Shown piece after piece: positions 28,851 through 62,007 of a DNA stretch of 64,000 bases. The notes below the pieces were generated by a model, which was not told the DNA's origin, made no database searches, and saw only the letters and a list, made by a program, of their open reading frames with translations. Both the position numbers and the translations under genes were made by a program. Within the stretch, counting starts at the first letter, position 1. Each line of letters opens with the position of its first letter. Origin of the DNA: Romanomermis culicivorax (lineage: Eukaryota > Nematoda > Enoplea > Mermithida > Mermithidae); contig CAWUHX010000118.1 in the NCBI GenBank assembly GCA_963922205.1, positions 434,001 through 498,000 of the forward strand, in the 5' to 3' direction.

Positions 28851-28876
28851 CGTGTACCTGAGTAAGAACCTGAGCC

Positions 28877-40766: not shown

Positions 40767-41458
40767 TGTCAGAGGGTCAATTCCTCTGACCTTTGGTCCT
40801 CTAATTACATCATTTCATTTTCTAAAGTTTCTTTATTGCTAAAGTGTTTTCATTTATTCTCAGGTAAACAAACCGATAAAACGGTTTGTGTCACTCATAT
40901 TTTTGGTCTAAAACAAACAAATGGTTGGCGCAAATGTTTTGCATATCACTGGCAGGTCGATGTTAGACGCGCGCCAGCGTTTTTATTCATTCTTAGTTTT
41001 TTCTTATTATTATTATTGTGACAAATATTGTCGTCCGGAGAATCGCCTCTCCCTTGCGTAGTATTGGCGTCCACCCCGTAGTTCTCGGACGCTGTGTTAT
41101 TTTGGGACGACGGTGACGGAGGAAAGGATCGTCGTCTTGTTTATTTGTATTTCGTGATACGCGCCGCGGGCGGATTTTGAGTGATAACGCGGCCTGAGAC
41201 GTTTTCGACGTTCCATTTTGAAGACAGGAATCGTGAGTGGTTGTGTGAGTTAGTTCACTTACTTTTGGTAGAGTTTCAGCTTAGGCCGTGCCCTGAGAGA
41301 TCCCATTGGCCCTGTGGCTCGCTGCTCAGGGACAAATTGGAAGGATCAGTTGACTAGGGAGGTTGTTGGCGTCGGTGTTTATATTTTCGGCGCTCTGCAC
41401 CTTTGTTTCGTACTTACATTCCTCACTGTATTTCACTACCTGTTGTGTTTTGCTCACT

Positions 41459-41464
41459 AATAAA
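41459..41464 (+). terminator. Polyadenylation signal in the LTR
   Basis: AATAAA within the LTR, repeated at 54291-54296 in the 3' LTR, where it would end the element's transcripts. Confidence 0.5.
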
Positions 41465-41561
41465 CGTTCACGTACCTCAAGTCTCAACTCACTGCTGTCG
41501 GAGTGAAATTAGTACTGGGTTAGCGTCAGGGGCCGTACCAGATTGGATCTCCCAAGAACCG

Positions 41562-41570
41562 CAGGTAAGC
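41562..41570 (+). promoter_or_regulatory. Splice donor in U5
   Basis: CAG/GTAAGC matches the donor consensus and lies in the leader ahead of gag. Such a donor allows subgenomic messages that skip gag-pol, as for retroviral env. The same site is present in the 3' LTR at 54397. Confidence 0.55.
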
Positions 41571-41603
41571 AGCCGAGGGCATACGACCACGTTAATACGA
41601 CAT

Positions 41604-41621
41604 TGGTGACTTGTGCAGCTA
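41604..41621 (+). other. Primer-binding site candidate
   Basis: TGGTGACTTGTGCAGCTA begins one base after the LTR. TGG is complementary to the CCA end of a tRNA. The tRNA species was not identified. Confidence 0.55.
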
Positions 41622-41633
41622 CAAAGGTAAAAG

Positions 41634-42977
41634 ATGAAGAAAGTATCGAAGCCGAAATTAACGATACGGAAGCAACCTGGACGACGGCCGAAAGTAACAT
41701 TATCGCAAATGGAATTGAATAAAGAGGATCACGACGAACGGATGGCAAATATGGAAGCAACGATCGAACAAGTAGCAAAGAAATTTGCGAATTCACCCGA
41801 TGACAGCAACAAAGATCAGACTATTGACGCAGAGACATATGATTATGCGGATCAGGGGATACAGACGTCCTCTGGTTCAGTATCATCCTTCGAAAAGATT
41901 AATGTAACTCCAAAAACGAATGTGGTATCATTTCATAATTCGAAATACACGCCTACAATACCGGAAATCGACGCAAAAATTGGTATCGAAACGAAACCGA
42001 GGAATGAAACCGAAAGACCGATGAAAGGGAATTTGCAGGATGTGGCCACTTTAGCCATCCTGGAATCAATGCAAAGAGCAGTCGATAAATCAACAAATGC
42101 CGTTAATGTCGAAAGAACGAAAGCAGCGCTCCGGGAACAAGAAATATTAGAACAACTTATGCAAGAAAGAGCAGAGAGAAAATTATTGGAAGAAAGGTTA
42201 CGAGAACAGGATCAACAAAATGCGAGAAAGATAATGGAAGAGGTCGAAAAACAAATGCGGGAGTTAATGAGGAAAACGGATAAGAAGCTCGATGAAAGAA
42301 TATCGAATTATGAAAATACAGAAATACTTCAGTCTGAACCGGTTAAAGACCATTTAGACAGAAGTTTAGAGAGAAAATTAAATTGGTTTGAAAATCATCT
42401 CGCCCAGGCACAGGCTCAAGGCGCACAATATCGAAGGATGGAAGATGAAATACCAACAACGTCATGGAATCGCGGAATGGAACAACCTATATCTGGAAGT
42501 ATCCCTCGAAATCAGCATGATTATGGACGATATTGCGAAGATCCTGAGAAAAGAATAAAGATAATTTTGGGTCGAATGAAGAACAAAGAAATATCAGATA
42601 AAATGGAGGCCGCAGAAATACTCAATTTTTTCGCCTGTTTGGAAGGCACATTCAAGCCTGAAGATACGGAAGATCTTAGAATTGAAGTACTTTGGCGATG
42701 TTGTGATTTTGAAACTTCGACATACGTGGATAAGAATAGTAGCTATGAAGAAGGAAAGGCAAGCGTGATAAGAATGATTGCTCCCAAAATGGACACTCCT
42801 GCACTTAGGAGGGAGTTACATGATATGAAAAAACGAAAAGGGGAGACGACAAAGGATTTTTTACGCCGAATAAAAACTTATGTTCATTTATTAAATTACG
42901 AAAAAACCGAAAATGAACGAAATCGTATTGTCATCGAAACATATTTTCACAAAGCTCCAGTTTACGTCCAAACGTGA
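41634..42977 (+). CDS. Gag N-terminal and capsid part, ends at in-frame TGA
   Basis: The ATG lies 31 bases after the LTR. The 447-residue frame opens with a basic segment, then has a long charged coiled coil at about 130-230 and a retrotransposon Gag capsid-like helical region at about 300-447 that includes a KRKGET-type stretch. Translation ends at a TGA (42975-42977), and the next codon continues in the same frame into the rest of Gag and Pol. The capsid homology appears to run across the stop. It is therefore either a nonsense change in this copy (CGA to TGA is a simple transition) or a stop that is read through. Gag would form the particle in which reverse transcription takes place. Confidence 0.85.
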
Positions 42978-45476
42978 ATGGAAGGTCGGCTGCACGAATT
43001 CAAAAATATCGCCTCTTTGGCGGAGTTTGTAAACAAATTGAAAGCCGATACGACGGCCTGGAAGGAATTCAGCGAGGACCAAGAAGATGGCGAAGATGAT
43101 CGGTTGAATAGAGTCTATGAAAATAAAAGATTTAATAATTTACAATTTCGTCCGCAGGATAGTAATACTGGTCAACAACAACAGATTATACGGCCTCAGC
43201 AAATTTTCCCGCCACCACCAGCATTTCAAACCCCTTTGTCTCAACAGGATATTATGAAAATGGTTAATGAAGCGATTAGGAGTCAGGGCCCTCCAACTCT
43301 TAATCGTTGGGGAATCAATAATAATCCTAATAAGGTACCATATAATAACAATTTACCTGGTAGAATTTTGGGAAGTCCGTATCGTCGGCCATATTGTACA
43401 TACCACAAATCGAATAGTCATTCGTCTGAAAATTGTTTTATCCTTCACCCGGAATTGATCCAACCAACGGATCAAGGGAGGTCGTGGAATCGCGGCAATA
43501 ATTTTTATAATCGAAATTTTGACCATCGCGGCGGCTTTGTAAATCGTGGAAGAGCAGGATTTGCTAATTTCGGCCAACGGGTGCCATATCACAATAATAA
43601 CGTCGAACAGAATCCTAATGTGGCATATTATTACCGCCAAAATACCGTCCCGCAGCCACCGCCAAATGCTGTACCAGTAACGCCAACGCAACCGGTGAAT
43701 AACCCTCCGAATAATTCCGTAAATGTTATAAATTCACAAGAAGCTAAAAAGCAAGACAAGCCGGAAATTATAGCATTAGATGGAGTTTTGATAGAAAACT
43801 ACGAGTTAGGCTTGGGGAACGTTATCAATTCTACTTCAGAGACGAAGCCTAGACTCGCCAATGATAACGAGCACCTATTTTTGGAAAATTTTCGCAAATG
43901 TCAACCGTTATTGATACCCGTTAGGATACGGGGAGAAGAATTTAAAGCCCTAATAGATACGGGAGCCCAATCTAGCTTCATGAGGACAGATACAGCGTCA
44001 AGGCTACTGAATACGCCCAAGACAAAATTCCCTATCTTAAATTCAGTAGTAACAGCTGTTGGAAAACGAGTGACAACATATGGTCCTACATTTGTGTACG
44101 TCGGAACCAGTTTTGGGAATTTTCTGGCCAGATTCGCATTACTAGATAACCTAAATGAAGGTATTATATTGGGTCTAGATTTTCTAACCCATCCTAGTAT
44201 ACAGGCGTCTATCGATTTTCGAAACGGCCACATACGCCTAGCAAATGTAGAGAAACAAATTATTAGTGAGACATTATTCGACGATGCGCAAATACCGTCC
44301 CGTTTACCGATCCCTACGAATCCAATGGTTCTCGATTACGTACCTCTACAAGAGGAAGTCAAAGAAGAAGACCTACCTGAATTAGAAAGTGACGAGGATC
44401 AAGAACAAGTGATGCGAATTACTGAAATGAACGAAGAAACCTTTATTTGGACAAAAAACGGGACATATATTCCCCCAAATACCACTTCTTTTGTGCAAGC
44501 TGTGGTTTGGCCACAGAAAGATTGGGCAAAGGGTCCTATAGTGGTGGAAGAAACGGGGAAAGATACCTTATTTGACATCGATGCCTCAATCGTGGACGCT
44601 AGAGACAACAATTTTCGTATCCTACTCATAAATGAGACAAACAAGGGAATCAAACTGCGTGGCAACGAGTTGATAGCCAAGACCAAAACAAAGTTCGTGG
44701 GGCCAGAATTTGATGAAAAAGTACATCAACTGCAATCGGAGCCCCAAACTCAGTGGCAAATCGAACCCGAATTCGTCAAAATAGTTACGCAGTTGGTAAA
44801 AGAATCGAGTGTCGATAGAGAAGGACAACAACAGCTTATGAATGTCTTACTCAAGCATAGGCAGGCATTCAGCATGAAAGACGACCCTTTAACAATGACC
44901 CACGAAGCAGAACACAAGATCAATACAGGAGACGCGTTACCTGTCCAAAAACACTACTGGAGAGCGCCAATTATGCAAAGAGATATAATTCGAGAACATG
45001 TAAAAGACATGATGGAAAAGGGTGTCATCGAGCCTTCTAGAAGCCCTTGGGCTGCGCCATTGTTTTTAGTAGGCAAAAAAGATGGCACATGGAGACCAGT
45101 AGTCGACTACAGAGGAATCAATCAAGTGACGAAAGACGACAAATTTCCAATACCTCGAATAGATGATTATTTAGATGCGCTGGGAGGAGCACGGTACTTT
45201 TCTACTTTGGATTTAAAGTCGGGGTATTGGCAGGTACCCATGCACTCCGAATCAAAAGAAAAAACAGCATTTATATGTCAAGAAGGTTTGTTCCAGTTCA
45301 AGGTGATGCCGTTCGGTCTAAAGAATGCTCCCGCGGAATTTCAACGACTCATGGAACGAATTTTGTACCCATACGTATGGAAAATATGCCTAGTATATAT
45401 CGACGATGTTATAATTTTTTCAAAAACCGTCGAAGAGCATATATTTAGAGTTTATAGACAATATTTCGATGTCTAA
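42978..45476 (+). pseudogene. Gag zinc knuckle, protease and reverse transcriptase (frameshifted)
   Basis: This 832-codon frame is in the same frame as gag, directly after its TGA. Residues 140-153 form a C-x2-H-x4-H-x4-C zinc-knuckle variant. Residues 155-255 are rich in Asn, Arg, Gly and Pro. The aspartic protease has D327-T-G-A and an ILGLDF motif at 397-402. Reverse transcriptase runs from about 650, with [19 protein letters not shown] and the catalytic Y-I-D809-D810. The frame ends shortly after YIDD at a TAA that lies inside the RT domain. Homology resumes one frame away at about 45473, which is best explained by loss of a single base. In intact relatives these domains are released from a polyprotein by the protease. 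Confidence 0.9.
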
Positions 45477-47668
45477 CAAACGCGAACCTCACACTAAAAC
45501 CTGACAAATGTTCCTTTATGCCAGCCAGTGTGAAATTCTTAGGCCACATATTGGACAAGAACGGAATGTCAGTGGATCCACAAAAGATAGAAGCGGTAAA
45601 AAATTTCGAAGTACCCAAGTCCATCAAGCAGCTGCAAAAGTTCTTGGGATTAGTGCAGTGGTCTAAACGTTTCATTCACAATTTAGCCTTTATCGCCCAG
45701 CCCTTATTTAAAGCCCTCGCAAAGAAAAATAGGAAGGAAAAGTTTGAACTTTCAGAGGAGCAGTTAGCAGCTTTCGAAAGTGTAAAGAATGCCCTAATGA
45801 CGGCACCCTTCCTCCGATACCCAGTATTTGACGGGTCAGCAAGATTTGTAATTCAAACAGATGCCTCAGGAACGGCAATAGGGGCAATTTTGTATCAAGA
45901 AACGGAAAATGATCGATGGACAATAGCCTACTCGAGTCGAGTTTTAAACGACGCGGAAACAAGGTATTCAACGACAGAAAGAGAATGTTTGGCAGTAGTT
46001 TACGGGTTCAAGCAGTATAGGCATTACGTGATGGGGTTTAGGGTCACGATCAGGACAGATCATAAACCACTCACGTGGCTCTCCGCAGAGAAACAGCAAA
46101 ATCAAAGGTTGTTAAAATGGGCTTTATATCTCGGCCAATTTAATTATATATTCGAATACGTAGCGGGACGAGAAAACGCCTTCGCAGATTTCTTATCACG
46201 ATCCGAAGAAAAGGAGAAGACTCGAAATAAAAGGCAAGAAACAAAGGAAGAAATCGAAGAGGAGAAAGCGACTACGGAACCCGAATGCATGGCGGTTACG
46301 AGAGCCATGACGAGGCAAATGCTTGAACCTGAGACTCAGGAAACATTCATTGATCCCCCACCGCCGACCCAGCAAGAAATAGATCAAACACCGAAAGAAG
46401 TGAAAAAAGATTCCGAATTATTCTCCCTGGAATTAGTTAAGAAACAACAACAATTGGATCCGAAGTTGGTGGACATTTTTCGGAACGTTGCTGAAAATAG
46501 TTCGAAAAAATACTTTAATAGTTTTCACTTGGAAAACGGAGTATTATACCGTGAAAATGCCCATGGAAAAAGCCAACTAGTGATCCCATCAAGACTTAGA
46601 CACCTCATCTTACATCAATATCACGGCGATACATTAATGGGACACCAGGGAATAGATAGAATTATCGCCGCGATAGGAAACAAGTTTTGGTGGCCAAATA
46701 TGGAAAACGACATTATTAAATGGATAAAATCCTGCGTCGTTTGCCAACTGTGCCGCCCCATAGCAAATCCGATCCAACCACTTAACCCAATACCCGTCTC
46801 GTATCCTTGGGAGATAGTAGCAACCGATGTGGTCAGTATTTCGCCCCTTCGAGAAAAAAGACCATACGTTATTGTATTTATGGACTATTTCACGAAATGG
46901 GTCGAAGCAAAATGCATCCCAGATCAAAAGGCCGACACAATAGTGAAGGCATTTATGGAAAAGGTCATTTATACGCACGGCACACCGAAACACCTGCTGA
47001 GTGACCAAGGCTCAGCATATATGTCCGAGTTAATGCGCAACGTGTGCGATCTCTTAAAAATAAAGAAAATAAATACAACACCATACCACCCGCAATGCAA
47101 TGGTATGGTGGAGAGATTCAATAGAACGTTAATAGAACAAATTAGGAGAGTCGCGATAACCGACCCAGACGATTGGCCACACTATCTCGAGCAAATTTTA
47201 TTTGCATATCGGATTACGCCGCACAAAACAACGAAAAATTCCCCCCATAGCCTACTGTACGGGCACGAGGCTAGGTTTCAATTGGATAATGAGATAGCGA
47301 GGCCAATAATTATCCAGAATAATTACGATACCTACAGATACATGTTAACGGAGCACCTCCTTAACACGTATAAAATCATAAATGAAAACCATAAAAAATC
47401 CGCGGCCGAAAGGAAACTACAGTACGATAAGAAGGCTCGCGAAAAAACATTCCAAACGGGAGAACTTGTTCTCTACCAAAAGGGAATTATCAAAGGAAAG
47501 GCCGATACAACAAACGACGGTCCGTACGAAGTAATTGAGACATCGAATTTAGAAAAAAATGTCATTAAAATACGTCGCGCTGGGAAACCAGATTCGCGCG
47601 TACAAATAGTTTCTGTAAATCGCGTAATGCCTTTTGTTACGCGAACGCCCGATTTTTACTGTAATTAA
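45473..47668 (+). pseudogene. RT thumb, RNase H and integrase (continuation after frameshift)
   Basis: Homology begins at about 45473, although the first ATG in this frame is at 45518; residues here count from that ATG (716 in all). RT thumb occupies 1-60. RNase H has TD115AS, the TERE block at 153-156 and TD181HKPL. A charged linker covers about 228-300. Integrase has an HHCC zinc-binding part (H369, H376, C406, C409) and catalytic D437, D496 and E532, spaced as D35E. GPY/F-type G-P-Y-E-V follows near 666. Apart from the frameshift upstream, no stop interrupts RNase H or integrase. Integrase would insert the cDNA copy. The frame ends 5.9 kb before the 3' LTR. Confidence 0.9.
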
Positions 47669-48067
47669 CAATTCATTTTTATCGTTTTCGTTGTGCATTT
47701 TGTTAGGATTAATTTTATGTGTATTTTCTAATGCCCTATGTATTATATTTTTTCTAACCTTTCCCCCTTTCTCCTTTTTCAATTTTTAATTGTACTGACT
47801 TATTTTTGGCAACTTTATGGCAAGTTTTAGGCATTTTCCAAAAAATTACGACGCCGGAAAATTTTTAATGGGCGAAATAATATTTTTTCATGCGCTCAGT
47901 GTGAAAGAATTAAATCTTTATAAGTCCCGGGAGAATCTTCCCCGAATCATTGAAGTCGCGAAGCCGAGGAATTATGGAATTATTTTTTAGATTTCATTTG
48001 CAAAGCGTTAGTGTATTAGTAATTTTCGTCGATTGGAAATTTCAAGAAATTCGGATCCAAACGCGAT
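47669..48067 (+). other. Spacer between integrase and the ORF3 leader exon
   Basis: A 400-base AT-rich spacer without a long open frame. AG sites such as TTTCAAG near 48045 could act as acceptors for splicing from the U5 donor to the ORF3 message. Confidence 0.4.
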
Positions 48068-48152
48068 ATGGCAACGTCCACTATCGTCGAAGTTGATAGC
48101 ACCTTCGGGCAGCCGCAAGATCGGCAAGATAATACGAATTTTCAACTCAGTA
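48068..48152 (+). CDS. Candidate leader exon of ORF3
   Basis: The ATG at 48068 opens a 28-codon frame plus one base, ending exactly before a near-perfect donor, GTAAGTAT (48153). A splice from here to an AG at 48381-48382 leaves exon 2 starting at 48383 in the phase needed to enter the long ORF3 frame, and the codon across the junction is a sense codon. The 230-base intron contains in-frame stops, so reading through unspliced RNA would fail. The acceptor (GAAGATTAG) has a poor pyrimidine tract, which is the weak point. Confidence 0.55.
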
Positions 48153-48381
48153 GTAAGTATTGGAAAGGTAGAATGTATGTTGAAATTTTTCGGAATAGGA
48201 CTCTAAGTTGACCGGCCGGCAATTTATATGCCGAGGATTTTGGGTGTTTGAGAGCCTGATCAACTCCCCTTCGTCCAAATTTATTCTTGTGCATTTGAGT
48301 CGTTTTTGTTTCGAAATTATTGTTAAAAATTGTAGTTAGAAAATTGTGTGGAAATTTTAAGATTACAATATTCGAAGATTA

Positions 48382-51300
48382 GTGCGTTCAACGGATATTT
48401 CAAATTATTTCACGTCGTTGTTCGGTGTGCCTCATGCGGCCATCGAAGAACCATTATTTTTGGCGCCCGAAAATTTGAAAGCATTTATTAGAGCGATAAA
48501 CAATTCGAAGTTTCGAGGACGGATAGTCATAGCGCTGGATACAGAAAGTGGGAGGAAGCCAAAAACCCCAGGATCGAAGCCTAGTGACGCATTGCGACTT
48601 TTAACAATTTCAACCATGTGCGGGAAGAACTTCATAATCGATTTGAAATTTTGGGACAGAGAACATTTCCACAAAGTATATGGAACAATATTTCGCCGCG
48701 AAAACATCATCGTCGGTTTTCATATTCGAGAGGATATCACGTTAGTTTTGACCAAATTCGGATATTTGGATCAAGAAAAAGAACTAGTGCGGAAAAGACG
48801 GGACAACATAGATTATATTTTATCGTGCTGCGTTTACGATTTGGAGATTGTGTTGGCAGAAATGAAGGACAAGCCGAAAGCCAGAATAGTCGGAATCAGC
48901 CCCGAAGGTCTCAATTTGAAAGCCCTCATGACGGAAATTTTGTTTTTATGGGCCGATGCCTTCAAGATTTCGTGGGGACAGTTGAGTTCCCTGGAGTTTC
49001 GACAGCTAATGGAGGCAGATAAGCTAAACATAGAACTTTTGAGATACGCGACGCTCGACGCGCGCGGGTCGCTTTTATGTTTTCTAGCGTTACTTCGATA
49101 TGGATTCGCGAGCGATATTCAAAATTGCTTTCAATTGTACCCACACGACACAATGGAGCCGGAATTGATCTCCGATCTAGCACGAAGATTCAGAGATACG
49201 TTCGAAGGTAGAATTGCTGATCCAGAGTGGAAAGGAGCATATGGAGTGGAGGAAGTAACGGATAACACCAACGCGTTGTATTTCATGATGCGTGGAGAAG
49301 CTATCGCGACGTATAAATTGTCGGAAGAAATGGCGCCCGGGACTTTTCATTGTCCTCCGCATTTCTCCAATACCGATATTGAGCCACAGCCAGTACCAAA
49401 CGGTTGGTTCCCGTGGATAGAGAGAAAAGTGAAAGCGTCAAGGAAAAGAAAAGATACTGACGATTCCGAAGAAGCACCGGCAAACGATTGGGATTTAGAG
49501 GATATCTTGGCTGCACGACAGTTCGGACGGCCAATTGAACCCCGGGAAATGGAAATGAAAAAAGGAAAATGGCCTAAGGATGTGGTCCAGTTCACTAATG
49601 TTATACGAGAACAAGTTTCGGCACTCAAAGACCATTATCACTCCAAAATCAACCGATCAATCGTCCCCATAGTCAAAGAGTTGTACGAGAAAAACGTAAA
49701 CCCGATCATTTACTTCTTGTGGCCTCACTCGGCGCAAGAATGGAAATCCTGGGTTCCGGGATTCACGTCTGGTATGTGGGCCTCTGTGTGGAGAAATGAA
49801 CAGGAACGGGTTGAATTTATGAAGTGGATGGGCCAGGATCTTTTGAACGACAAAATTACCGATCAGATGGAGCAGATGATGGAATGGTATCCGAAGATAC
49901 GTACGCCAAAATCCATCCAGAACACTTTTTGCGTACTACCTATAAGATGGATACCGCGATCCTGCAAAGAACCTATCCAAGAAATAAAGACCAATTTGCG
50001 CGATAATTCTATTTATCATATGAATTGTAACTTTTATAACTTGTTTCATTTTCTGAATATCCATGCCGCGAGTCAGAACCTCATTTATTGGAATGTTTCC
50101 GCGTCCATATTCGAGGCTAAGGACCTATGGGCCCCTAGCACCTCTGCGACTTTTAAATCTGTAAATAAGTGGGACGATTCAGATCTGATTCCGCAAGTAG
50201 AAGTTGTGGTTCCCGCTAGCCAGGGCCCTATGGAAGAAACTTCGAAGGAGCAGACTGTAACAGTACCCTCTACAATAGATAATTCGAATGTTTCAGGTAC
50301 CGAGATGGAGCAAGAGAAACCCGTAGTTGTGGTCATCACGGATCCCCCTATCGCCAGTACACCCGCTGAGGGGAGTACAGGTGTTGAAGAGGAGGAGAAA
50401 CTCATGGAAATAGTCGAAACTGAAAAAGAAACCCAACCGGATTTCGAGAAATTAACCGACCAGATAAAAGAAATGAAAGAAAAAATAGAAGTTTTGGAAA
50501 GAGAAAAGTACGGCAAGGCCGCAATCGAATTGGCAAAGCAATTAGAAGATGTCAATCCCGAGGAAGAAGAAACGAGCGAAGAACCCTACGTGGAGGTGGT
50601 ATCAGAGATTGGTAGCGATGACGAAGAAATTACGGATAACGTTTTGCCCACGCCGCCGGTTTATGCAAAAGCCGGTGGGCAAAATGTAGAGAATATCAAG
50701 AATCTGGACAAATTTGCTAAAGTGATGCAATCGAAAAGACAGGCTACAGAGAAACGGATAGGTCACGAAGAAAATAAAGCCGAACTGGACAAAGTAAAGA
50801 GCGGGCAGTTTCAACAGCCAGCCGGAAATCCGAATGATAAAGTCAAGTATCGACGGGGCCTCGGGAAACGGGGACAAGTTCTTAACAAGGCCTTGAAGGA
50901 AGGAAAGTACGTCGTAGATTTCCAGTATGGGAGAGTATCTCTGTCAAACCCATGTGTCCAGAAGTATCTCGCGCACATGAATCCGACTTTAGATGAAGAG
51001 GTAGCTCTAATGGCGACGGATTTGATAAACCGGGTGTACGACGAAGCCGGGGTCGAAATTGAAACTATACGATATTACAAACTACAATTTCACGTTCTAC
51101 AGGCGAACTTGCCAGAAAAATTGTGGAGTATTTTCGAGCTTCAATTAACGGAATGGAGTACTACACGGTCTGCGGAGAAAGCTTATGAAGCCGCCGTATG
51201 GGCCTGCGCGTGTCTATTTATGAAGTTGTCGAGATTGGGCAGGATTCCCCAAAATTTTGCTGGGTTCCATTACCAAGCCCATGCGTATGTTACGATGAAA

Positions 51301-52434
51301 TTGCGTCGCGAGTTCAACGCTAGGCAAGGAGGAGCAGGGAGCAATTTTCATAGGTTATACTCCTCATGTCAGGCAAAGGCAGCGGGGTTAGCCTATACGG
51401 TTGCTAAGGCCGTGCTGCAAGACAAGAAGGACCCTGAACCCAAATACGCGAACATACAAGTTTGGAAGAAGGAAATTGACAATACGGACCCCAGAATACG
51501 ATTTTGGGAAGTTATCGATCGAAAGAAGGCTCACGATATATTGGAAGTTCAAAAAGCCTTAAAGAAAAGAGTGGGATACCGAGTCAAGCATGCCCACGCT
51601 AGGCCTGCGACCAGTAAGGTATCCAAACGATGGAGTAGAAAACAAACTGATACGCAAAGAACGGAGAAATCGAAAACGCCCGAAAACGACAGAAAAAGAA
51701 GGCACGAAAGTCGACACAGAGACGAAAGTCGTCACGAGAAGTCGATGTCGGGAGAAAAGAAACGCAAGGAAGCTGAAGAAGAAAGTTGGCGCAAGGAGAT
51801 CGATGACTACGAAAGGAAATACGAAAGGAAGGAAAGAGAAAAAAGAGAAGCGGCAGAACGTAAAGATAGTAGAGAGTCTCGAAGTAGGAAAAGAACAGCC
51901 GCATATTACCAACACGATGATAGAGTGGACGTGTCCTACTCCAGTCGAAGGACTTCACTGGACAGGTCTAGGGCCACCGAAACAACTCAGCAAGGAGTGT
52001 CAATGGCCGATCCAAACGCGATGATGCAAGCCCAGCAGCAGCAGTTACCTTATTTACCGCCGAATTATCCGGGATTGCCGATGGTGGGTGTTGATTGTAT
52101 AAACCGCCCTCTTTTTTCAGGACAATTATTCCCGAATACAATGGTGCCGCCGCCGGCACAGTTTCAAGTCCCGCAGTTTCCGGTCATGCAATTCCAGGCC
52201 GGGCAACCCCAATTTTACCACCAGTTCTTAGTTCCGCCGGGAATGCAGATGCCTCCGCCTACAATGATTCCGCCGGTGCGTAGTGTGCAAACGGAGGAAA
52301 GGATGGACATCCCGGGGACGTCGACGAGTACGAGACCGCCGTCGACTGAAAATCCCGATTATATTTCGCCGCTTAAACGGGAAACCGGTATTGGTCAACC
52401 GGGACGTGACCATAACGGTCATAGAAGGAAGTAA
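48382..52434 (+). CDS. ORF3: DEDDy 3'-5' exonuclease protein of the retrotransposon
   Basis: A 1350-codon frame with no stop. It begins at a GTG with no upstream in-frame ATG, and the first internal Met (residue 79) lies after motif I, so splicing from the 48068 exon is the likely start. Residues 45-240 are a WRN/RNase D/MUT-7-type exonuclease: motif I D53-T-E55, then RLLTIST and IIDL strands; motif II H114-x3-D118; motif III Y222-x3-D226. All DEDDy catalytic residues are present, with His in place of the usual Asn in motif II. Then come an unassigned region (250-680), a coiled coil (about 686-726), an acidic stretch, an unassigned helical region (about 823-1040), an Arg/Glu/Lys-rich region (1071-1173) and a Pro/Gln/Met-rich tail. 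Such nucleases trim RNA or single-stranded DNA 3' ends. A role in cDNA or RNA processing is inferred. There is no signal peptide or membrane segment, so it is not an envelope. Confidence 0.85.
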   Translation: MRSTDISNYFTSLFGVPHAAIEEPLFLAPENLKAFIRAINNSKFRGRIVIALDTESGRKPKTPGSKPSDALRLLTISTMCGKNFIIDLKFWDREHFHKVYGTIFRRENIIVGFHIREDITLVLTKFGYLDQEKELVRKRRDNIDYILSCCVYDLEIVLAEMKDKPKARIVGISPEGLNLKALMTEILFLWADAFKISWGQLSSLEFRQLMEADKLNIELLRYATLDARGSLLCFLALLRYGFASDIQNCFQLYPHDTMEPELISDLARRFRDTFEGRIADPEWKGAYGVEEVTDNTNALYFMMRGEAIATYKLSEEMAPGTFHCPPHFSNTDIEPQPVPNGWFPWIERKVKASRKRKDTDDSEEAPANDWDLEDILAARQFGRPIEPREMEMKKGKWPKDVVQFTNVIREQVSALKDHYHSKINRSIVPIVKELYEKNVNPIIYFLWPHSAQEWKSWVPGFTSGMWASVWRNEQERVEFMKWMGQDLLNDKITDQMEQMMEWYPKIRTPKSIQNTFCVLPIRWIPRSCKEPIQEIKTNLRDNSIYHMNCNFYNLFHFLNIHAASQNLIYWNVSASIFEAKDLWAPSTSATFKSVNKWDDSDLIPQVEVVVPASQGPMEETSKEQTVTVPSTIDNSNVSGTEMEQEKPVVVVITDPPIASTPAEGSTGVEEEEKLMEIVETEKETQPDFEKLTDQIKEMKEKIEVLEREKYGKAAIELAKQLEDVNPEEEETSEEPYVEVVSEIGSDDEEITDNVLPTPPVYAKAGGQNVENIKNLDKFAKVMQSKRQATEKRIGHEENKAELDKVKSGQFQQPAGNPNDKVKYRRGLGKRGQVLNKALKEGKYVVDFQYGRVSLSNPCVQKYLAHMNPTLDEEVALMATDLINRVYDEAGVEIETIRYYKLQFHVLQANLPEKLWSIFELQLTEWSTTRSAEKAYEAAVWACACLFMKLSRLGRIPQNFAGFHYQAHAYVTMKLRREFNARQGGAGSNFHRLYSSCQAKAAGLAYTVAKAVLQDKKDPEPKYANIQVWKKEIDNTDPRIRFWEVIDRKKAHDILEVQKALKKRVGYRVKHAHARPATSKVSKRWSRKQTDTQRTEKSKTPENDRKRRHESRHRDESRHEKSMSGEKKRKEAEEESWRKEIDDYERKYERKEREKREAAERKDSRESRSRKRTAAYYQHDDRVDVSYSSRRTSLDRSRATETTQQGVSMADPNAMMQAQQQQLPYLPPNYPGLPMVGVDCINRPLFSGQLFPNTMVPPPAQFQVPQFPVMQFQAGQPQFYHQFLVPPGMQMPPPTMIPPVRSVQTEERMDIPGTSTSTRPPSTENPDYISPLKRETGIGQPGRDHNGHRRK

Positions 52435-53586
52435 AGTTTTTATGTTTCAGATGACCCCGCTCTCCGTGAGGTCATTATAAAGGTAATTATTTCGTTCTGT
52501 AAAATTTCTTCGATATTTCAAAAGTTGCCTATTTTTTTCCGTTTTGAGCGTCTGTATTACAAAATCGAAACCGGTTGTGCCACCTTTTTATGCCTTAAAA
52601 GTTGCCTCTTGTACTAATCTTAAATTGTTTCATTTATTTTTTCATTTGTGTTTTGTTCGAGATCTGCACGGGAATATATCGTATTTCTTTTTTTTTGCGA
52701 ATCTGGAAATTATTGAGCAATTTTTTGTATTTTCTTAAATCTCGGGTATTTTGTTCCTTTCCGACAAAGTCACCAACTGGCATCGCCCAAGGATAGCAAG
52801 CTTTGCGCTGCCATTTTCATATTTTTTCCATCTTTTTTCCAAAACACATTTTCATTCTAAAATTTTTTCGTGGCACAGACCGTGTTATTGGTTTAAGTTT
52901 ACCTCTTAATAAGGCAAATTCACTTTAGCAATAAATACCTTAAATATTTTTGGTTCAAAATCTAGACAGCCAAAGGGCCAGAGGATTTGGTTTTCGGGCA
53001 TCCTTTCTCCCTGGGGGCAGATAATACCAAAGTCGTCGGGGGGGCCAGTGTCCGGCCAAGGGGCCAGAGGAGCAATGGCGGCGGAATTTGGAAAGTCTTG
53101 CGGGCTCTCCACAGCAACAACCCCCCCTCCGGAGAGGACGGAGACGAATGCCACAATCCGTGATGGAGGAGCCGCCGATACGAAATAAATCGACGGCAGT
53201 GGGGAGCAGCCCACAACCTAACTCGGGCACCGCGGGGGTCGCCGCCGATAAAACGTTTTTATTTTTATCTTGATCAAAATTCGGCCCGAGTGCCGCGAAC
53301 GCTATTCGTTCGAACATTTTTTATTCTTTTATTCGGGACCACGAGCCCACGGGGCATTTTATTAGCGAACTTTTTAGCGTCGGGTAGCATCCGGCGCAAT
53401 TGGCCCAAAGTTGTAACGATACCGTTCGATACGGACATTTTATTTTTTATTGTTTATAATTGCGTCAACGGCGCGTAGTGTCGTTGGTTGGAACAGTTGG
53501 AGGCGTCGATCGTCGGCGTCGAGGGTCTGGGGCCCTTGGGGGACCTCCTGACTTTTCCCTTCGCTGGCGGGAAAAGTCTTGCCTTT
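52435..53586 (+). other. 3' non-coding region of the retrotransposon
   Basis: 1.15 kb between the ORF3 stop and the purine tract. G+C rises after 52970. The - strand frames at 52906-53317 overlap one another, are proline-rich and come from composition. No ORF4 is supported. Confidence 0.55.
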
Positions 53587-53598
53587 GGGGGGGAGGGA
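53587..53598 (+). other. Polypurine tract
   Basis: GGGGGGGAGGGA lies directly before the TG of the 3' LTR, the standard position of the plus-strand primer. Confidence 0.85.
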
Positions 53599-54434
53599 TG
53601 TCAGAGGGTCAATTCCTCTGACCTTTGGTCCTCTAATTACATCATTTCATTTTCTAAAGTTTCTTTATTGCTAAAGTGTTTTCATTTATTCTCAGGTAAA
53701 CAAACCGATAAAACGGTTTGTGTCACTCATATTTTTGGTCTAAAACAAACAAATGGTTGGCGCAAATGTTTTGCATATCACTGGCAGGTCGATGTTAGAC
53801 GCGCGCCAGCGTTTTTATTCATTCTTAGTTTTTTCTTATTATTATTATTGTGACAAATATTGTCGTCCGGAGAATCGCCTCTCCCTTGCGTAGTATTGGC
53901 GTCCACCCCGTAGTTCTCGGACGCTGTGTTATTTTGGGACGACGGTGACGGAGGAAAGGATCGTCGTCTTGTTTATTTGTATTTCGTGATACGCGCCGCG
54001 GGCGGATTTTGAGTGATAACGCGGCCTGAGACGTTTTCGATGTTCCATTTTGAAGACAGGAATCGTGAGTGGTTGTGTGAGTTAGTTCACTTACTTTTGG
54101 TAGAGTTTCAGCTTAGGCCGTGCCCTGAGAGATCCCATTGGCCCTGTGGCTCGCTGCTCAGGGACAAATTGGAAGGATCAGTTGACTAGGGAGGTTGTTG
54201 GCGTCAGTGTTTATATTTTCGGCACTCTGCACCTTTGTTTCGTACTTACATTCCTCACTGTATTTCACTACCTGTTGTGTTTTGCTCACTAATAAACGTT
54301 CACGTACCTCAAGTCTCAACTCACTGCTGTCGGAGTGAAATTAGTACCGGGTTAGCGTCAGGGGCCGTACCAGATTGGATCTCCCAAGAACCGCAGGTAA
54401 GCAGCCGAGGGCATACGACCACGTTAATACGACA
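53599..54434 (+). repeat. 3' LTR
   Basis: 836 bases, with the same ends as the 5' LTR and four transitions different. It is followed by GGTG, the second half of the target duplication. Confidence 0.95.
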
Positions 54435-54438
54435 GGTG

Positions 54439-55563
54439 TAAAGTACATACATTTCAGTTGACAATATATGCAAGTTCAGAAAATATTTGTTGGTCAAGTT
54501 GCTAGAGTTTAGACTCAATTCAGGGAACTAAATAATTTGTGAAAACTATGTATTTGTACTATATAATTTTGGCAACATCCCTACTGTCAACTGGGACAAA
54601 ATCAAATCATGTATCATATTAAAAAAACCTGCAAGAAAAAGTATCCTAGAATGTCAATGTAATTTTTTTCATTTGAGACTTGATGAAAACATTTTCAATC
54701 ACTTTATAATCTGCAGGCCAATCTGTAAATTAACGTTGTCACATTCAGCATGACATTCAATATGAAACATTTTAATCAACTGGCTGTTCAAAGTTTTTAA
54801 TATAAAGGTGTAATATAATCATGGAGTAAAAGAAAATCCGATCATTTGCATATCACACCATTGTCTGTCATTGTTTATGCACATTGATTAAAACGTTATA
54901 TCTATTATTTGTGGAAATAAATTCACAAAGATTTTGTTGGTGATTTTTCCAAGAATTTTTGGATCGATCCCATGTAGGAATATAATGTGAAATACTCTTC
55001 CGCATTCTTTGAAATTGAGCTCAGTGATTGCAAATAAAAACCTAATAAACCACAGTTTTTGTTCATCTTGTGGCAAATTATCAATGGGTTGCCCGTTGCT
55101 TCATATCAAGAGAGAAATAAATCACCCACATGATACTCTATGCATAAAAATGACTATCCCAAAAATACAAAGCATGATTGTGAATTCCCAAAAATTTTCA
55201 AATCTGGCATGCTTCTGCTTCAACTTTTTATCGTTTGTATCCAAAACTAATAGAATCTGGTTCCACAGTTTTACTTTTTCTGCTACTGTACATATAGTGG
55301 CAATCTCACCATGTTGCTGATGATGTTGTCATTTCTGTGATATAAACGTTGGGTAACAATTGTTGAGACTTCATCCAATTTTATGTTGGCATCATTCCAA
55401 AATTTTGATTGTTCTGCTTGCAAAGGTATAGCATATTGTGGACTGTAATATTTTCCTGTAATATGCACAAAGGAATTAAGTGCATCAGCTCAGGATTAAT
55501 CAAAATGAGATGAGTGATTCGTATGAAATGTCTCAAGCTGAAGTTGTAGCAGATATAGCTTAC
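54439..55563. other. Downstream flank; possible further exons of the protease-like gene
   Basis: On the - strand 54900-55076 and 55300-55468 hold coding-like frames next to splice-like sites. The first contains a C-G-x-V-F-H segment and the second a basic helical segment. They might belong to the S1 protease-like gene upstream, but no catalytic serine block was found in them. Confidence 0.25.
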
Positions 55564-55612
55564 TTGTGCCATGCAAAAAAATGTGTGGTGATGGTGTGCA
55601 ATCCTTGATGTT
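55564..55612 (-). CDS. Possible small exon of the protease-like gene
   Basis: 49 bases on the - strand between a TTGTGTGCAG acceptor and a GTAAGC donor, open in the tested frame. It lies 0.5 kb downstream of the exon with the catalytic-Asp-like motif. It has no motif of its own. Confidence 0.25.
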
Positions 55613-56147
55613 CTGCACACAAGATGAATGTGCTACTGAAACACGTATAATTTACATGGGAGGTGTTAAAAGTTGAACTTTCTTGGTAGAAAATAGCTGC
55701 ACAAAAATGTAACTTTTGCAGTGGTATGTGCTGTAAATACAGCTTTTCCAGACTTCGAAATCAGAATTTGGTTCATCCAATGACCCACACCACTAAAACT
55801 TTGCATAGGCAGTGATACCATCAAAAAAGAGTTGGTATGGGGAAGATATCCAGATCTAGATCCAATTTTGCTGATATCAAGTAATTGATCATCTTACTTC
55901 TTCACATGTCTATGCTGCATACAGGATCCAAATCCCATCCAGACCCAAGCTTAATCTAGAATTGTGGATCCTGAACCAATAATCAAATTTTTGGATCTGA
56001 ATCTAAATGCAATGTAGTCAAAAAGTGGATACCTCCCATGTGTGAAAAACCACACGTGTTCCTGACTTCTGAACAGCTTATATGTACTAATCAAGTCATG
56101 CCAATTATTGATAAATCAAGATTGTGATGGTGATATAGAAAACTTAC

Positions 56148-56448
56148 TGTGATTCCAGCCGACAGTTGCAAAACTCCAATCATCAATTCTAATTGATCCA
56201 TTTGTCACTAAGTCCAGTGGTTGAACATATGAATTGAAAACTATATCATCTTCAAGTTCCAGAATTATGGGCCAGTCAGCCAGGGTGACATCCAATTTGT
56301 CATAGCATGGGTAAACATGACGTTTGTTGATCCTTATAATTTGTTCATGGTAGCCATTCAAGTCCAAAAAGTAGCAACCAGCTATCAGTCTTGGTCGCTT
56401 ATGTTGCCTCAGTCTATAAAGAAGTTTTTTGCTCAATTGAGGCAAAAT
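56148..56448 (-). CDS. S1 protease-like domain 2, Asp-region exon
   Basis: The frame runs from a TTTCCTTTAG acceptor to a strong GTAAGT donor. It encodes RLIAGCYFLDLNG, a basic linker, HVYPCYD, TLADWPIILELEDDIVFNSYVQPLDL, and ends near ATVGWN. This follows the chymotrypsin-family layout A-G...H-P-x-Y...D-I-A-L-L-x-L...V-x-P-x-x-L...G-W-G. The Asp of ADWPIILEL stands at the catalytic Asp102 position. The exon belongs to the same - strand gene as the exons upstream (higher coordinates). The following exon with a serine block was not identified. Confidence 0.5.
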
Positions 56449-56908
56449 CTAAAGGAAATTGATTCGCCAGCATAAATTTAACCAATCAACTTTTCCACCC
56501 TGCTCAAAACAAACCACTTAGAGCCTGAGAGATGACTTTTCCCACATGAGATACACAACAGATTTTGAAAAATAATCGTGAAATCTACAGCACATAGTTG
56601 TGAATCTGCACAGAATGCTACAGACTACATAGAAAACATTCTAGATGGAAACTTAAGCAGAGCATAAGAAGAGACTCGAGTGTCATGATTATGGTTTCAT
56701 CTGTTTTCATTTTCTACACAAAATATATGATGATAAGCTGCACAATAATTTCAGAATTTTATAGTTTTTCCACTCCTCATTTGACTCCAGGATTTTTAAA
56801 CTATTCAATAATGATAAGTAGTGGAAAATATTCCCAAAATTATTGGGAAGTAGATCAAATAAATTGCTTCCATTCAATGTACTTGACTTCACAATTAAGC
56901 TAATTTAC

Positions 56909-57286
56909 CTCATTTCGATACAACGCATAGTTGAAAGTAAAAACCTCGTCCTGTCTTTTCGTCCAGCTCTTGTTATTAAAGATTCATTCAATAGTGCACT
57001 GGCACAATATTTGTTCCATTGTTTTTGTTCGAGGCCTACGATCCAGGGCGCTGTCAGAGGTTTGACCATAAAAGCACCAGATGATGGTTCATATTCCGGT
57101 ATTACAGGGTATTTTGCCACTGGGATGTTCATTTCAGCATATCCACTTTTGAATAATTCATTTTTAAAATGGGATTCAGCATTGGTCATTTCATCAAATG
57201 CTTGAATACTGAACTGTCTTGTTGCTTCCTGCATTCCAATCATGGACAACACTGTGACATGTGTGTCCAAGAGTGCTCTACTTGAC
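56909..57286 (-). CDS. S1 protease-like domain 2, N-terminal exon
   Basis: The frame from about 57286 to a GAG/GTAAAT donor at 56909 ends with a chymotrypsin-like start: PLTAPWIVGLEQ, then KYCASALLNESLITRAG. In active S1 enzymes the latter reads C-G-G-S-L-I...V-L-T-A-A-H-C. Here the histidine position appears to be glycine, so this domain is probably a catalytically dead homologue, unless an exon boundary hides the true histidine. The first part (about 65 residues before APW) has no known motif. The acceptor phase at 57286 matches the donor phase of exon 58617-58809, which links them as neighbours in one transcript. Confidence 0.5.
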
Positions 57287-58260
57287 CTTAAAATAGAAAC
57301 AGGATATTTGAGTTTAGTTAAGCGGGGCCTTGTAGATACCGAGTTGTGCTGCACTTCTGGGAAACTGTAGATATATCAGTACATTTTTGACCTGTTTTAG
57401 AACCACAAGGTAATTTGATGATGTGTCAGTGCTGTCAAAGGAGCATTCCTGTAATGAAAAGTCGCCCATTCCAAAGTCTTTTTTTATGGTTAGCATAATC
57501 GTATTGTATCAGCAGTATATTACTGTAGGTTACTAGCGAATAAAGAAAAGCAAAAACCATGCTAGTTGTTTCTTGCATACATTTAGTTGAGGTTAAAGTG
57601 TCATTGGAGCCACCAGCTGAAATTTTCTACCATACCACTAGCCATTGGGTGATTATCCCACAGAATTTTCTAATCAAATGAGATTTAAAAAATACTGAAA
57701 ATTGTTGAAACTATTTGATGGAAATTGATAATTTTTAAACGGAAAAAAAATTCAAAAATTTTAGTGTATTTCCCTCCATAAAAACATTTATGAGTTTTTT
57801 CCTGCCATGTGTACATTTTCTGCAGAGTTTAAGACAAAAACAAAAGTGGGGGGTGTTTTTCTATTTTACCTCCCTAACCTTAGGACTATGTGATGTCTAT
57901 GACTACTTGTAAATTGGGAAATGTCGCAACAGAAAGCAAACAAAAATTGTGAACATCTCTTTAAGGTAAAGTGAAGAAGTTTGACTGAAGATTATCAAGA
58001 CTGTTTGGGTTAGAAAAGCATTCAACAGACCTGAATTTCATGTTGGACAATGATGCAATTGTAGAAATTGAGTTTCAAATCAGAATTTACACAATTTTCA
58101 GAGAAAAAAGTTCACACACATTGTGTGCTGATGATTTAATTTGAACACATCAATCTACATTCTGAACCTTGCTCGTTAACCACATTGAGTACTGATACAT
58201 ATCCTACTGTATGATCACATGACATGATGTGCAGGTACAGTTCATGTACTGCATTGTACC

Positions 58261-58353
58261 CGAAAGTTCTAGAACCTTCCACAATGTTCTATAATATTCT
58301 TTTATATTCTACAAAGTTCTAGAACATTCTGTGATCTTCTGTGACACTATAAA
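58261..58353 (+). promoter_or_regulatory. Heat-shock-element cluster with TATA box
   Basis: Inverted and direct TTC/GAA units occur close together from 58264 to 58340, including GTTCTAGAACCTTCC and GTTCTAGAACATTC, the classic heat-shock element form. They are followed by CTATAAAAG (TATA at 58348). The orientation is +, opposite to the protease-like gene whose intron contains it. The short frame after it (58356-58583) has no ATG at its start and no known motif. It could be the U3 promoter of a decayed LTR or another mobile element. Confidence 0.45.
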
Positions 58354-58616
58354 AGATGTGTTATTTTGTATACTCATTCATTTTATTTATTGTACTATTT
58401 AGTACTTGGATATTATTTAGATATATTTATGTTGTGTTAGTTAGTCTTATTAAATTTAGCTATTCAAGTGCTATTATTCCAGTTGGATATTTACCAATTT
58501 TTCTAAGGCTAATACATTTGCAACTTAGTCCAGTCATTATTCAAGACACAACAAGTGCACTCATATTTTATGATTTTGTCTGACACATGATAGGATATGT
58601 ACTCTTATTAGCTCAC

Positions 58617-58809
58617 CTTGGGACAACTTGACTTATACAGCTAGCTGATACTTCAACTTGTGGATTGTCCGAGTTTGACATTCGACCAGTGCAGTGAAAT
58701 GGACCATCGAACAACTGAATACTAATATTCCATGTTGGTTGCATTGATTGGATATCAAATTGTGCACTAGGTGGTGTTGACTTATCTGATCCTCTAGTAT
58801 TTTCTCCTC
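58617..58809 (-). CDS. Linker exon of the protease-like gene
   Basis: 193 bases on the - strand between a TTGTTTACAG acceptor and a CAAG/GTGAGC donor. The frame is open and includes FHCTGR and SASCIS. Its entry phase matches the donor of the PAN-containing exon, and its exit phase matches exon 56909-57286. No domain is recognised; two cysteines could form a disulfide in a secreted protein. Confidence 0.45.
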
Positions 58810-58863
58810 CTGTAAACAATGAAAGCTCACACTGCATGGGAAAATCATTCTCTTACATATCAC

Positions 58864-59452
58864 CATGATTTTGTTGAAAGTAGATGACCACAGACTGCCT
58901 ACCATGGGTAGATACCACTGACAACATTCGGTATATTTTTTCATCGGAAAAATAACAACGCTTTGCAAACTGAACATAGCCGCAAATTCCTCCATGATTT
59001 TCATCGTAACAAAGCACAGCACACGTTAGTGCATCAGCCACAATTTTGTAGCCAAAAATACCAGTTATATAAAATTGATCATTTTCAACATGGAAATGTT
59101 TATGAAAAGTTCTATCAAGCCATCTTTCATCGTTATTAACTTCTGTTCCAAAGTTTAATTTTCTCTCGAAGTCATCTATTGACAAACCGACTCCCATAGA
59201 ATAGTACTTCAATATTTCTACAATTAACATGTTACTAGGAGACAAAGATCGATAGGGCAATAGTTTAGGGTGGTAAAAATATGGATCATCTATTTTGTCC
59301 AAAGTTTTCAATATCCATGCAAAATATTCCACAATGTCCACAAAAACTGATGCAATATCCAGTAAGTTGTCAGGGCCATTGTAATTTGATACAATACCTT
59401 GTGCTACCACATTATTATCTTTAGTACAGACAATTGGGCTTCCACAGTCACC
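58864..59452 (-). CDS. S1 protease-like C-terminus with Cys nucleophile position, plus PAN/apple-like segment
   Basis: The exon begins immediately with GDCGSPIVC at the place of the chymotrypsin-family GDSGGPLVC, followed by AQGIVSNYNG and an FVDIVEYFAWI helix, the standard end of an S1 domain. The catalytic Ser195 position is Cys. After about 60 residues comes a cysteine-rich segment (ADALTCAVLCYDENHGGICG, then RCYFS) of PAN/apple type. The exon starts after a TTTTTTGTCAG acceptor in phase 0 and ends at CATG/GTGATA. PAN/apple modules bind proteins or sugars, so the product is probably a secreted or surface mosaic protein with two S1-like units around the PAN module. Whether Cys keeps activity cannot be told. 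Confidence 0.55.
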
Positions 59453-59570
59453 CTGACAAAAAATGAAAAATGAATGCATTCTCATTCTCATGGATAGACT
59501 AGCTTGCTAAAAACTAAAAATTGGAACAGAAAATTGAATTTGAGATAATTGACAATTCTCAAAACCAAAC

Positions 59571-59698
59571 CTATTGTCTGATAACCATTAGGTTCATATT
59601 GAAGAGGACTCACAAAAGTTACACCGGAATTCAGTGCACGTATTGCCTCGTAAAATTCCCCTACGTCAACCATTTCTGTTATATTTGTTGTCTTTAAT
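59571..59698 (-). CDS. Upstream exon of the protease-like gene
   Basis: The frame starts after a clear CAATTTTTCAG acceptor and includes MVDVGEFYEAIRALNSG. Two donors are possible: GTTTGG after 59571, or GTGAGT after 59614. Only the latter gives the phase needed by the GDCGSP exon. Exons carrying the His and Asp of the first S1 domain should lie further up (above 59700), but none was recognised. Confidence 0.35.
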
Positions 59699-59699
59699 G

Positions 59700-60650
59700 C
59701 TGAAAAATTGAGATAATTGTGGATTTATGACCACGTCTCTGAATCATCTTCCTTTCATCCAGAAGTAGGAGAGTGAAATATTGGAACTCAAAAAACATGC
59801 TTTTTTACCCAAGTTTCATTGATGTGCTCTAAAACACTCTGTACAGGGAGAGGGGTTGCTGTATTTCATCAATGCATAAATTTTTTATATCAGTTTCAGG
59901 AACAGCATTTCAGAACGATTCAAAATATGTAGATTGGGTCCTGATTAAATAATCTGCAAGGGAAATAATAAAAACTCTGAATATGGAAATTGGGTGCAAA
60001 CACAATCTGGCACTGTGGTACAGATAGGATGCTATGAGTAACATACAAAATTATGACACAGTGAAAGCACAGAAGTCTTCATTCTATGCAACATCACAAT
60101 TTTAAGAAATGTGTTCGGGCAACCAGTTTCACATTCAAGTTTTCTGAAAATATGTTAAGATCTGATTACTCTATAGAGTTGAAACTCTTCTAAGATTGTG
60201 AATATTAGAATTCGAATCAGCAACTGCAAATTTTGATGTGAAGCACAGTTATTACCTTCTATGAGCTAAAAAATTTTGAGCACACCATTTGATTAAGGAT
60301 CCATATGTGCCATCAAGTTAGATTTATCGCAGGCTGAAACTAATTTATCTCTATCATCCCTGAACAAACTCAACTTCTCTGCACAGCCATCATATCTCAA
60401 GATATCCTCACAGACTAGAATGTGAAATAGGCAGTCTGGATAAATTCTCAAGAATTTTTCTGAACGTATTGTGCAATTGCAGTTGCAATTTCACAAAGTT
60501 TTTTCTTCATGTGAAAGATAAGTAATGCATGTTTCTCACTGCTTTGGCAATGTCAGTTCCTTCAAAGATACCACAATCAAACTTTTTATTGATTTTAAAT
60601 TACAGATAAGAGAATCATACCTCTACTTTGACTCCCACCCCAACTACTCA
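59700..60650. other. No supported gene
   Basis: AT-rich sequence. It may contain introns or unrecognised 5' exons of the - strand protease-like gene. Confidence 0.35.
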
Positions 60651-60654
60651 AAGT

Positions 60655-61205
60655 GCAATGGTCAACTTTATCCAAAGTGAAATGGGGCAAAGCAGTCAGT
60701 CGTATAAATTCATTGTACTCCACTGAAGATCAAATTCGGCCTACTTAACTCCATCATGTTCCCAACCGCAATCTATGCCAGTGAGACATGGAAGGCGTCA
60801 GCCAGCATTAACAACAAGCTGGATGTCTTCCAACAACATTGCCTCCCCTAAACCCTAAAGATCCCCTACACCGATCACATCACAAAGGAAGAAGTCCTGA
60901 GAGGGAGTGGCGCAGTCAAACTCCACAACATCGTTGCAGGTTGAAGACTCGGACTGGCTGGCCACATCCTCCGAATGGACCACTCATGGATAGCGAGGAT
61001 AGCGATGCACTGGCATCCTCGAGGCGCGAAAAGGCCTCGTGGACGTCCATGAAATACCTGGAGAAGGACGTTCATTCAAGACCTGAAGGCATCGAACATG
61101 GCCTGGGATGATGCGCAAACCCTGGCACAAGACCCAAACCAATGGCGATCATTTGCTGCCTGATATGCTACATAGCATGGGAGGATCTAAGTCTAAGTCT
61201 AAGTA
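60655..61205 (+). pseudogene. 5'-truncated LINE remnant (RTE/CR1-like RT C-terminus)
   Basis: In translation this reads MFPTAIYASETWKAS, then FQQHCL, LKIPYTDHITKEEVL, RLGLAGHILRMD, GRPWNTWRR and AQDPNQWRSFA. This is the conserved tail after the reverse transcriptase of RTE/Jockey/CR1-type non-LTR elements (Y-G-x-E-T-W, L-R-x-I-L, G-H-x-x-R-M, G-R-P...W). Stops and a frame change interrupt it. It ends in a short (TAAGTC)n-type tail near 61185, as expected for a LINE 3' end, and upstream domains are missing. Confidence 0.75.
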
Positions 61206-61638: not shown

Positions 61639-61639
61639 A

Positions 61640-62004: not shown

Positions 62005-62007
62005 CCT

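Follow-up and report, generated by a model that had tools for sequence, protein, structure and literature searches.

What does a predicted exonuclease do in the env position of a retrotransposon? The question is raised by a stretch of 64,000 nucleotides from the mermithid nematode Romanomermis culicivorax (assembly GCA_963922205.1, contig CAWUHX010000118.1, positions 434,001 to 498,000 of the forward strand), analysed at its full length and called the window below. Positions 40767-54434 of the window are a Ty3-type long terminal repeat (LTR) retrotransposon of 13,668 bases, one copy of a multi-copy family (family A). Downstream of pol, this element has an open reading frame (ORF3) that is under strong purifying selection and whose N-terminus is, as profile transitivity and a predicted model support, a DEDDy exonuclease-type domain and more than a chance resemblance. 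The parts of the element are as follows:

40767..41602, + strand: 5' LTR, 836 bp, from pairwise alignment to the 3' LTR
41565-41566, + strand: candidate splice donor GT in the last 40 bp of the 5' LTR (AG/GTAAGC, read from the sequence)
41604..41619, + strand: primer-binding site (TGG...) right behind the 5' LTR, read from the sequence
41631..47668, + strand: gag-pol with protease, reverse transcriptase (RT), ribonuclease H (RNase H) and integrase by Pfam; broken in the window copy
47989..47990, + strand: TTTTTAG, a candidate splice acceptor before the start of ORF3, found in all 20 other copies
48068..48152, + strand: predicted ORF3 exon 1, 28 codons, ATG at 48068, donor GTAAGT at 48153
48362..52434, + strand: ORF3 exon 2 with DEDDy exonuclease domain, conserved C-terminal region and K/R/E/S-rich tail
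48496..49104, + strand: DEDDy exonuclease domain, residues about 46-248, from profile, motif and model evidence
48538 (D), 48544 (E), 48733 (D), 49045 (Y) and 49057 (D), + strand: catalytic codons, D60, E62, D125, Y229 and D233 counted from 48361
50929..51360, + strand: region in common with family D ORF3, residues 857-1000 (22.5% over 151 columns, E 2e-5)
53587..53598, + strand: G-rich polypurine tract just before the 3' LTR, read from the sequence
53599..54434, + strand: 3' LTR, 836 bp, from pairwise alignment to the 5' LTR

Within the open frame of ORF3, the presence and spacing of the DEDDy landmarks are as given in a preliminary description of this DNA, which was made from the letters alone; its residue numbers were seven too low. 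D125, Y229 and D233 are present in all 19 aligned rows, D60 and E62 in 17 (the remaining two rows are fragments with a later start), and the catalytic residues are conserved across four families of the genome, three of which (B, C and D) are described below. The connection to known exonucleases runs through family C: two of its pieces pass the Pfam cut-off for DNA_pol_A_exo1 (7.7e-8 and 1.3e-7), and a family C profile scores the window ORF3 at 54.5 bits, whereas the highest-scoring of 1000 shuffled sequences reached 4.3 bits. A structure model of the domain, predicted from a 25-row alignment, resembles the exonuclease domains of Nibbler/MUT-7, RNase D and WRN and has an RNase H-like DEDD fold; a model from the single sequence was poor (predicted local distance difference test, pLDDT, of 41) and its Foldseek matches were uninformative. 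The WRN/RNase D/MUT-7-type fold that had been proposed from the strand pattern is thus supported by profile transitivity and by a predicted model of modest confidence, and ORF3 is predicted to be a 3'-5' exonuclease, the cleavage of which would be metal-dependent. When the full ORF3 was compared to 5.8 billion proteins, none of 6990 candidates reached E <= 1.

Copies of the element were searched for in the whole genome assembly (359,112,060 bases in 595 contigs). With the 346 N-terminal residues of ORF3 as query, 117 places were scored among 2973 first-look candidates, with 86-100% identity; frames of 1355-1361 codons are present in 49 of these and are stop-free in 43, the remaining six having a stop in the matched part. 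Of 10,633 first-look candidates for pol, 61 were scored, and 51 of these have a scored ORF3 2.9-4.5 kb downstream, 49 of them at the narrow distance of 2881-2907 bases. Both long frames occur together in twelve copies, or in ten once two copies whose matched ORF3 part contains a stop are set aside. Seen from the ORF3 side, all 20 copies that were fetched have pol upstream and 19 have the start of a 3' LTR downstream. One copy, L027, has an inverted second ORF3 piece (1-1108) upstream of its main copy (4201-8515).

Selection was estimated from pairwise Nei-Gojobori ratios of nonsynonymous to synonymous divergence (dN/dS) for the window and 13 of the 20 fetched copies, all with full frames; the other seven were excluded. 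For the whole of ORF3, nine copies compared to the window give dN/dS values of 0.05-0.15; the 45 pairs that set the window group against the L036-L040 group average 0.053, with synonymous sites near saturation. The exonuclease part has values of 0.02-0.09 in six comparisons and of 0.27 in one that rests on a dS of 0.007, two being saturated; residues 851-1100 have 0.04-0.16 in eight comparisons, with the ninth saturated. The RNase H-integrase part of pol ranges from 0.02 to 0.09 in ten comparisons and is lower than ORF3. Since ORF3 is linked to pol and its catalytic residues are retained in 17 to 19 of the 19 rows examined, neither of the patterns that the preliminary description had named as speaking against an element-borne enzyme, a one-off insertion of a host gene or a loss of catalytic residues across copies, was found.

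ORF3 itself consists of 1357 stop-free codons (48361-52434) between pol and the polypurine tract, in agreement with the frame of roughly 1350 codons noticed beforehand in the env position. A stop lies immediately before this frame; thus, the start is either upstream across an intron or internal. The start at 48068 proposed earlier is plausible: in the window copy the exon 1 donor at 48153 joins in phase to the acceptor AG at 48360-48361, ATG, donor and acceptor are retained in 20 of 20 other copies, and the exon 1 frame is open in 19 of these, with a stop in L031. ORF3 would then have about 1385 codons. The retained acceptor upstream of the ATG, the donor in the LTR and the retained exon 1 sites together predict a spliced message, in which the LTR donor would be joined to the acceptor upstream of ORF3 and a second short intron would follow the 28-codon exon. 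In addition to its K/R/E/S-rich tail, the ORF3 of family A has basic motifs.

The two LTRs of the element are identical at 832 of 836 aligned bases, start with TG and end with CA, and the element is flanked by a 4-bp target duplication, GGTG (40763-40766 and 54435-54438). The same GGTG flanks the family B copy L041, a possible target preference. Pfam identifies protease, RT, RNase H and integrase in this order, gag has a zinc-knuckle-like motif by our own reading of the sequence, and the database relatives of pol are Ty3-type, several of them annotated as transposon 412 pol. The content of a standard Ty3-type pol is therefore as first described; its frame is not intact: 42975-42977 is an in-frame stop, and near 45458-45476 the frame changes within RT. 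Intact versions exist elsewhere: in 18 of the 61 scored pol copies gag-pol is one frame of 2011 codons, stop-free over the matched part in 17, and two others have frames of 2049 and 2050 codons. Viral contigs searched with the pol protein returned 25 pattern matches and no relative.

Three further DEDDy families accompany family A. Family D is represented by 150 scored places among 2753 first-look candidates (identity 76-100%). No differences within the DEDDy domain separate the first 14 rows, and a frame of 1356 codons that is stop-free in the matched part is present in 14 rows. At the one family D locus that we read, the integrase upstream is 50% identical to that of the window over 333 residues, the ORF matches residues 857-1000 of the window ORF3 with its C-terminal part as listed above, and the tail is RGG-rich. 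Families A and D, the integrases of which differ by half, thus share one ORF3 plan. Among database proteins, the best relative of the window pol has 952 residues (P0001, from a 10,055-base contig in ENA; 45% over 66% of pol); by eye, its integrase looks closer still to family D, and a related element may thus exist outside the R. culicivorax genome.

Family C is mostly decayed, with stops in many of the listed rows. In family B, the full copy L041 (C69, 1126-8652) has LTRs of 620 bp that differ by one base and a frame of 1155 codons that contains a zinc knuckle, RNase H and, as a weak match, an integrase zinc domain, followed by a DEDDy ORF of 608 codons; no RT match was found in L041, the only full family B copy read. 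An integrase end lies upstream of the DEDDy ORF in seven of eight loci. Among five loci (ten pairs), dN/dS is 0.51-1.03 for the integrase part, the frame of which is nevertheless open in four of the five, and 0.02-0.16 for the exonuclease part. Synonymous divergence of the exonuclease reaches 2.1, far above the divergence of the adjacent integrase, spacer and 3' region (L002, L005, L006, L007, L008), and recombination between modules could explain this unevenness. A family B profile has no significant similarity to the window ORF3, with only the motif Y-A-x-L-D aligned, and the likeness found between families A and B hence does not go beyond the DEDDy motifs. With the family B exonuclease as query, one protein was identified among 2929 database candidates: an R. 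culicivorax entry of UniRef, 90% identical over 28% of the query, which supports the earlier assumption of a nematode element.

In the literature searched, a scope that left aside preprints and most subscription papers, the publications seen to treat DEDDy ORFs in retroelements are a paper on bdelloid rotifers and reviews (PMC5408684, PMC6431247, PMC5718144, PMC6338049), and by title or abstract there was no nematode LTR element and no Romanomermis report with an exonuclease ORF. The bdelloid LTR retrotransposons Juno and Vesta are described as carrying a DEDDy ORF3 (PMC5408684), in line with the preliminary description. They resemble the R. culicivorax element in their DEDDy exonuclease-like ORF3 and in the presence of more than one such LTR lineage per genome; their ORF3s are reported as typically expressed from spliced messages (PMC5408684), and here a spliced message is predicted. 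The differences are the nematode host, the predicted length of ORF3 with a long extra region common to family D, the absence of a dUTPase among the Pfam matches of the window gag-pol, and the presence of a DEDDy ORF also in family B, where no RT match was found in the full copy. No rotifer ORF3 was among the protein-database results for the full ORF3 and family B exonuclease queries. Terminons/Athena also carry a retroelement-borne DEDDy exonuclease ORF (PMC6431247, PMC5408684) but are Penelope-like rather than LTR elements and belong to the telomeric elements of rotifers. Among host genes, Nibbler, MUT-7 and EXD3 have the DEDDy fold and, in the structural comparison, rank first for the predicted domain; they differ, as described in PMC11347159, in having HEAT-like N-terminal and mostly MUT7-C domains. 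ORF3 has no Pfam match to a MUT7-C or HEAT-like domain, a result that remote similarity could escape, and the stretch of about 75 residues between its predicted N-terminus and the exonuclease domain offers little room for a large N-terminal domain.

What would such an enzyme do for the element? Our preferred answer, offered tentatively and with slightly less than even confidence, is that ORF3, a predicted 3'-5' exonuclease with RNA as its likely substrate, would serve the element against small-RNA silencing by the host. RNA is suggested as the substrate by the first-ranked folds, which are those of RNA trimmers, and by the tails, K/R/E/S-rich in family A and RGG-rich in family D. That the element may benefit from an activity on RNA is suggested by the RNA-binding-type tail, by selection in at least two families and by constraint where RT seems to be missing. 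The enzyme might trim host small interfering RNAs (siRNAs) directed against transposons, or the templates of RNA-dependent RNA polymerases (RdRPs). Clade I nematodes are reported to have no Piwi and no EGO-1-type RdRP but an RRF-3-type RdRP; of these, Trichinella spiralis is described as having no HENN-1-type methyltransferase, the enzyme that methylates small-RNA 3' ends, and as using Dicer siRNAs against transposons along with DNA methylation (PMC4323106). These features, including the missing methyltransferase of T. spiralis, would leave the 3' ends of siRNAs and RdRP templates open to the ORF3 enzyme. For R. culicivorax, the same report lists the methylation machinery and shows no piRNAs or 5'-triphosphate small RNAs (PMC4323106). 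Host DNA in the window (1-40000 and 55000-64000) has an observed/expected CpG ratio of 0.38-0.41 and an excess of TpG, as in methylated genomes. The ratio of the element itself is about 1.2 and thus not depleted; pieces of families A and B have 1.0-1.46, family D has 0.87-1.00 and the decayed family C 0.26-0.96. A more far-reaching version is rather doubtful: that nematode LTR elements encode a Nibbler/MUT-7-like suppressor of RNA silencing that trims unmethylated siRNAs or RdRP templates, and that the satellite-like, RT-less family B persists by carrying this counter-defence enzyme and little else under selection.

Several observations weigh against an anti-silencing RNA exonuclease. Neither the window ORF3 nor the family A copies have a direct Pfam match to DNA_pol_A_exo1. 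The exonuclease part of ORF3 had one match among PDB sequences (E 1.4), which is unrelated, and a profile of the ORF3 alignment had two, both unrelated chains at E 2. The alignment-based model is of modest confidence (pLDDT 54.9, predicted template modelling score 0.59), two of its 25 rows are Pfam-positive relatives, and Foldseek found no match to it at E <= 0.001. Nibbler leads the structural ranking by less than 1 Z and is therefore tied with the next structures, and the same fold covers DNA-acting enzymes (WRN, DnaQ epsilon and Pol I). At the level of copies, 74 of the 117 scored ORF3 places have no stop-free frame of 1355-1361 codons, for 10 of the 61 pol copies no ORF3 was scored where the spacing would place it, and a family B copy outside the 19 rows, L005, has a stop at the E of the motif. 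As for the host, the absence of HENN-1 is taken from T. spiralis and not from the R. culicivorax genome, and MUT-7 itself is reported to be required for silencing in C. elegans (PMC11347159).

The DNA-acting members of the fold, WRN and DnaQ epsilon among them, also speak for a role inside the replication cycle: ORF3 may trim the 3' ends of element RNA or cDNA, cleaning up primers or ends ahead of integration, with no anti-silencing function at all. To our knowledge, most LTR elements replicate without such an exonuclease, and this weighs against a replicative role, as does the constraint on the family B exonuclease, which persists even though L041 has no RT match and the integrase part is relaxed. 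The constant spacing of ORF3 and pol fits a replicative role, and 3'-end processing was proposed by the bdelloid authors (PMC5408684, PMC6431247); on balance, we regard it as unlikely, yet as a serious contender. Cer1 of C. elegans suggests another possibility: also a Ty3-type element of a nematode, it is described as expressing a non-envelope protein, CERV, from the env position by splicing (PMC10309623). By analogy, ORF3 could be a nuclear regulator of the genomic RNA of the element, acting in splicing, export or protection, with the exonuclease fold binding or trimming RNA ends; env position, predicted spliced message, nematode host, basic motifs and K/R/E/S-rich tail are all consistent with this. 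CERV is described as having H, M and G domains, the last of them GTPase-like in fold; the description mentions no exonuclease, and the word does not occur in the main text of the report (PMC10309623). Moreover, catalytic residues that are conserved across four families argue for catalysis, and a CERV-like role is in our view improbable, though likewise a contender.

The two remaining explanations are very remote, and both were rejected. A captured host exonuclease gene that is carried passively, or a one-off insertion of a host gene, has the general precedent of gene capture in its favour and nothing else; it conflicts with the 117 scored copies, the linkage in 51 of 61 pol copies, the dN/dS values far below 1 and the homologous ORF3 in the diverged family D. 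An envelope-like entry protein whose exonuclease likeness is coincidental would suit the position between pol and polypurine tract, but the DEDDy domain has the profile match, the motif conservation and the fold of an exonuclease, and Pfam, searched up to E 10, gave no envelope family.

The window has a few other features. Two near-identical frames of 340 codons, resembling membrane proteins, lie 10.7 kb apart on the minus strand (24499-25521 and 35185-36207); together with their repeated neighbours (25939-26331 and 36625-37017) they form a tandem duplication, and the one copy tested had no Pfam match. A weak match to organellar/viral DNA polymerase B (2273-2638, minus strand; E 0.033) is below the cut-off, and the short minus-strand frames from there to 9303 are possibly a decayed self-synthesising DNA transposon. 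Positions 28080-28914 are a long simple repeat, the two strands of which read (RL)n and (SL)n.

DEDDy ORF3s in LTR elements were already known from bdelloids, and the nematode host adds a variant. For the accessory enzymes of bdelloid elements, neither a clear advantage in proliferation nor a significant deviation from neutrality was reported (PMC5408684), and the question of whether env-position accessory enzymes help retroelements has been standing since. In R. culicivorax this question has become testable: the families together have hundreds of copies, both of the full elements that were read have nearly identical LTRs, the catalytic residues are conserved and dN/dS falls as low as 0.05. 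If ORF3 processes RNA or cDNA ends, it would add an enzyme to the replication cycle of LTR elements; should it act against silencing, it would be an RNA interference suppressor encoded by a retrotransposon.

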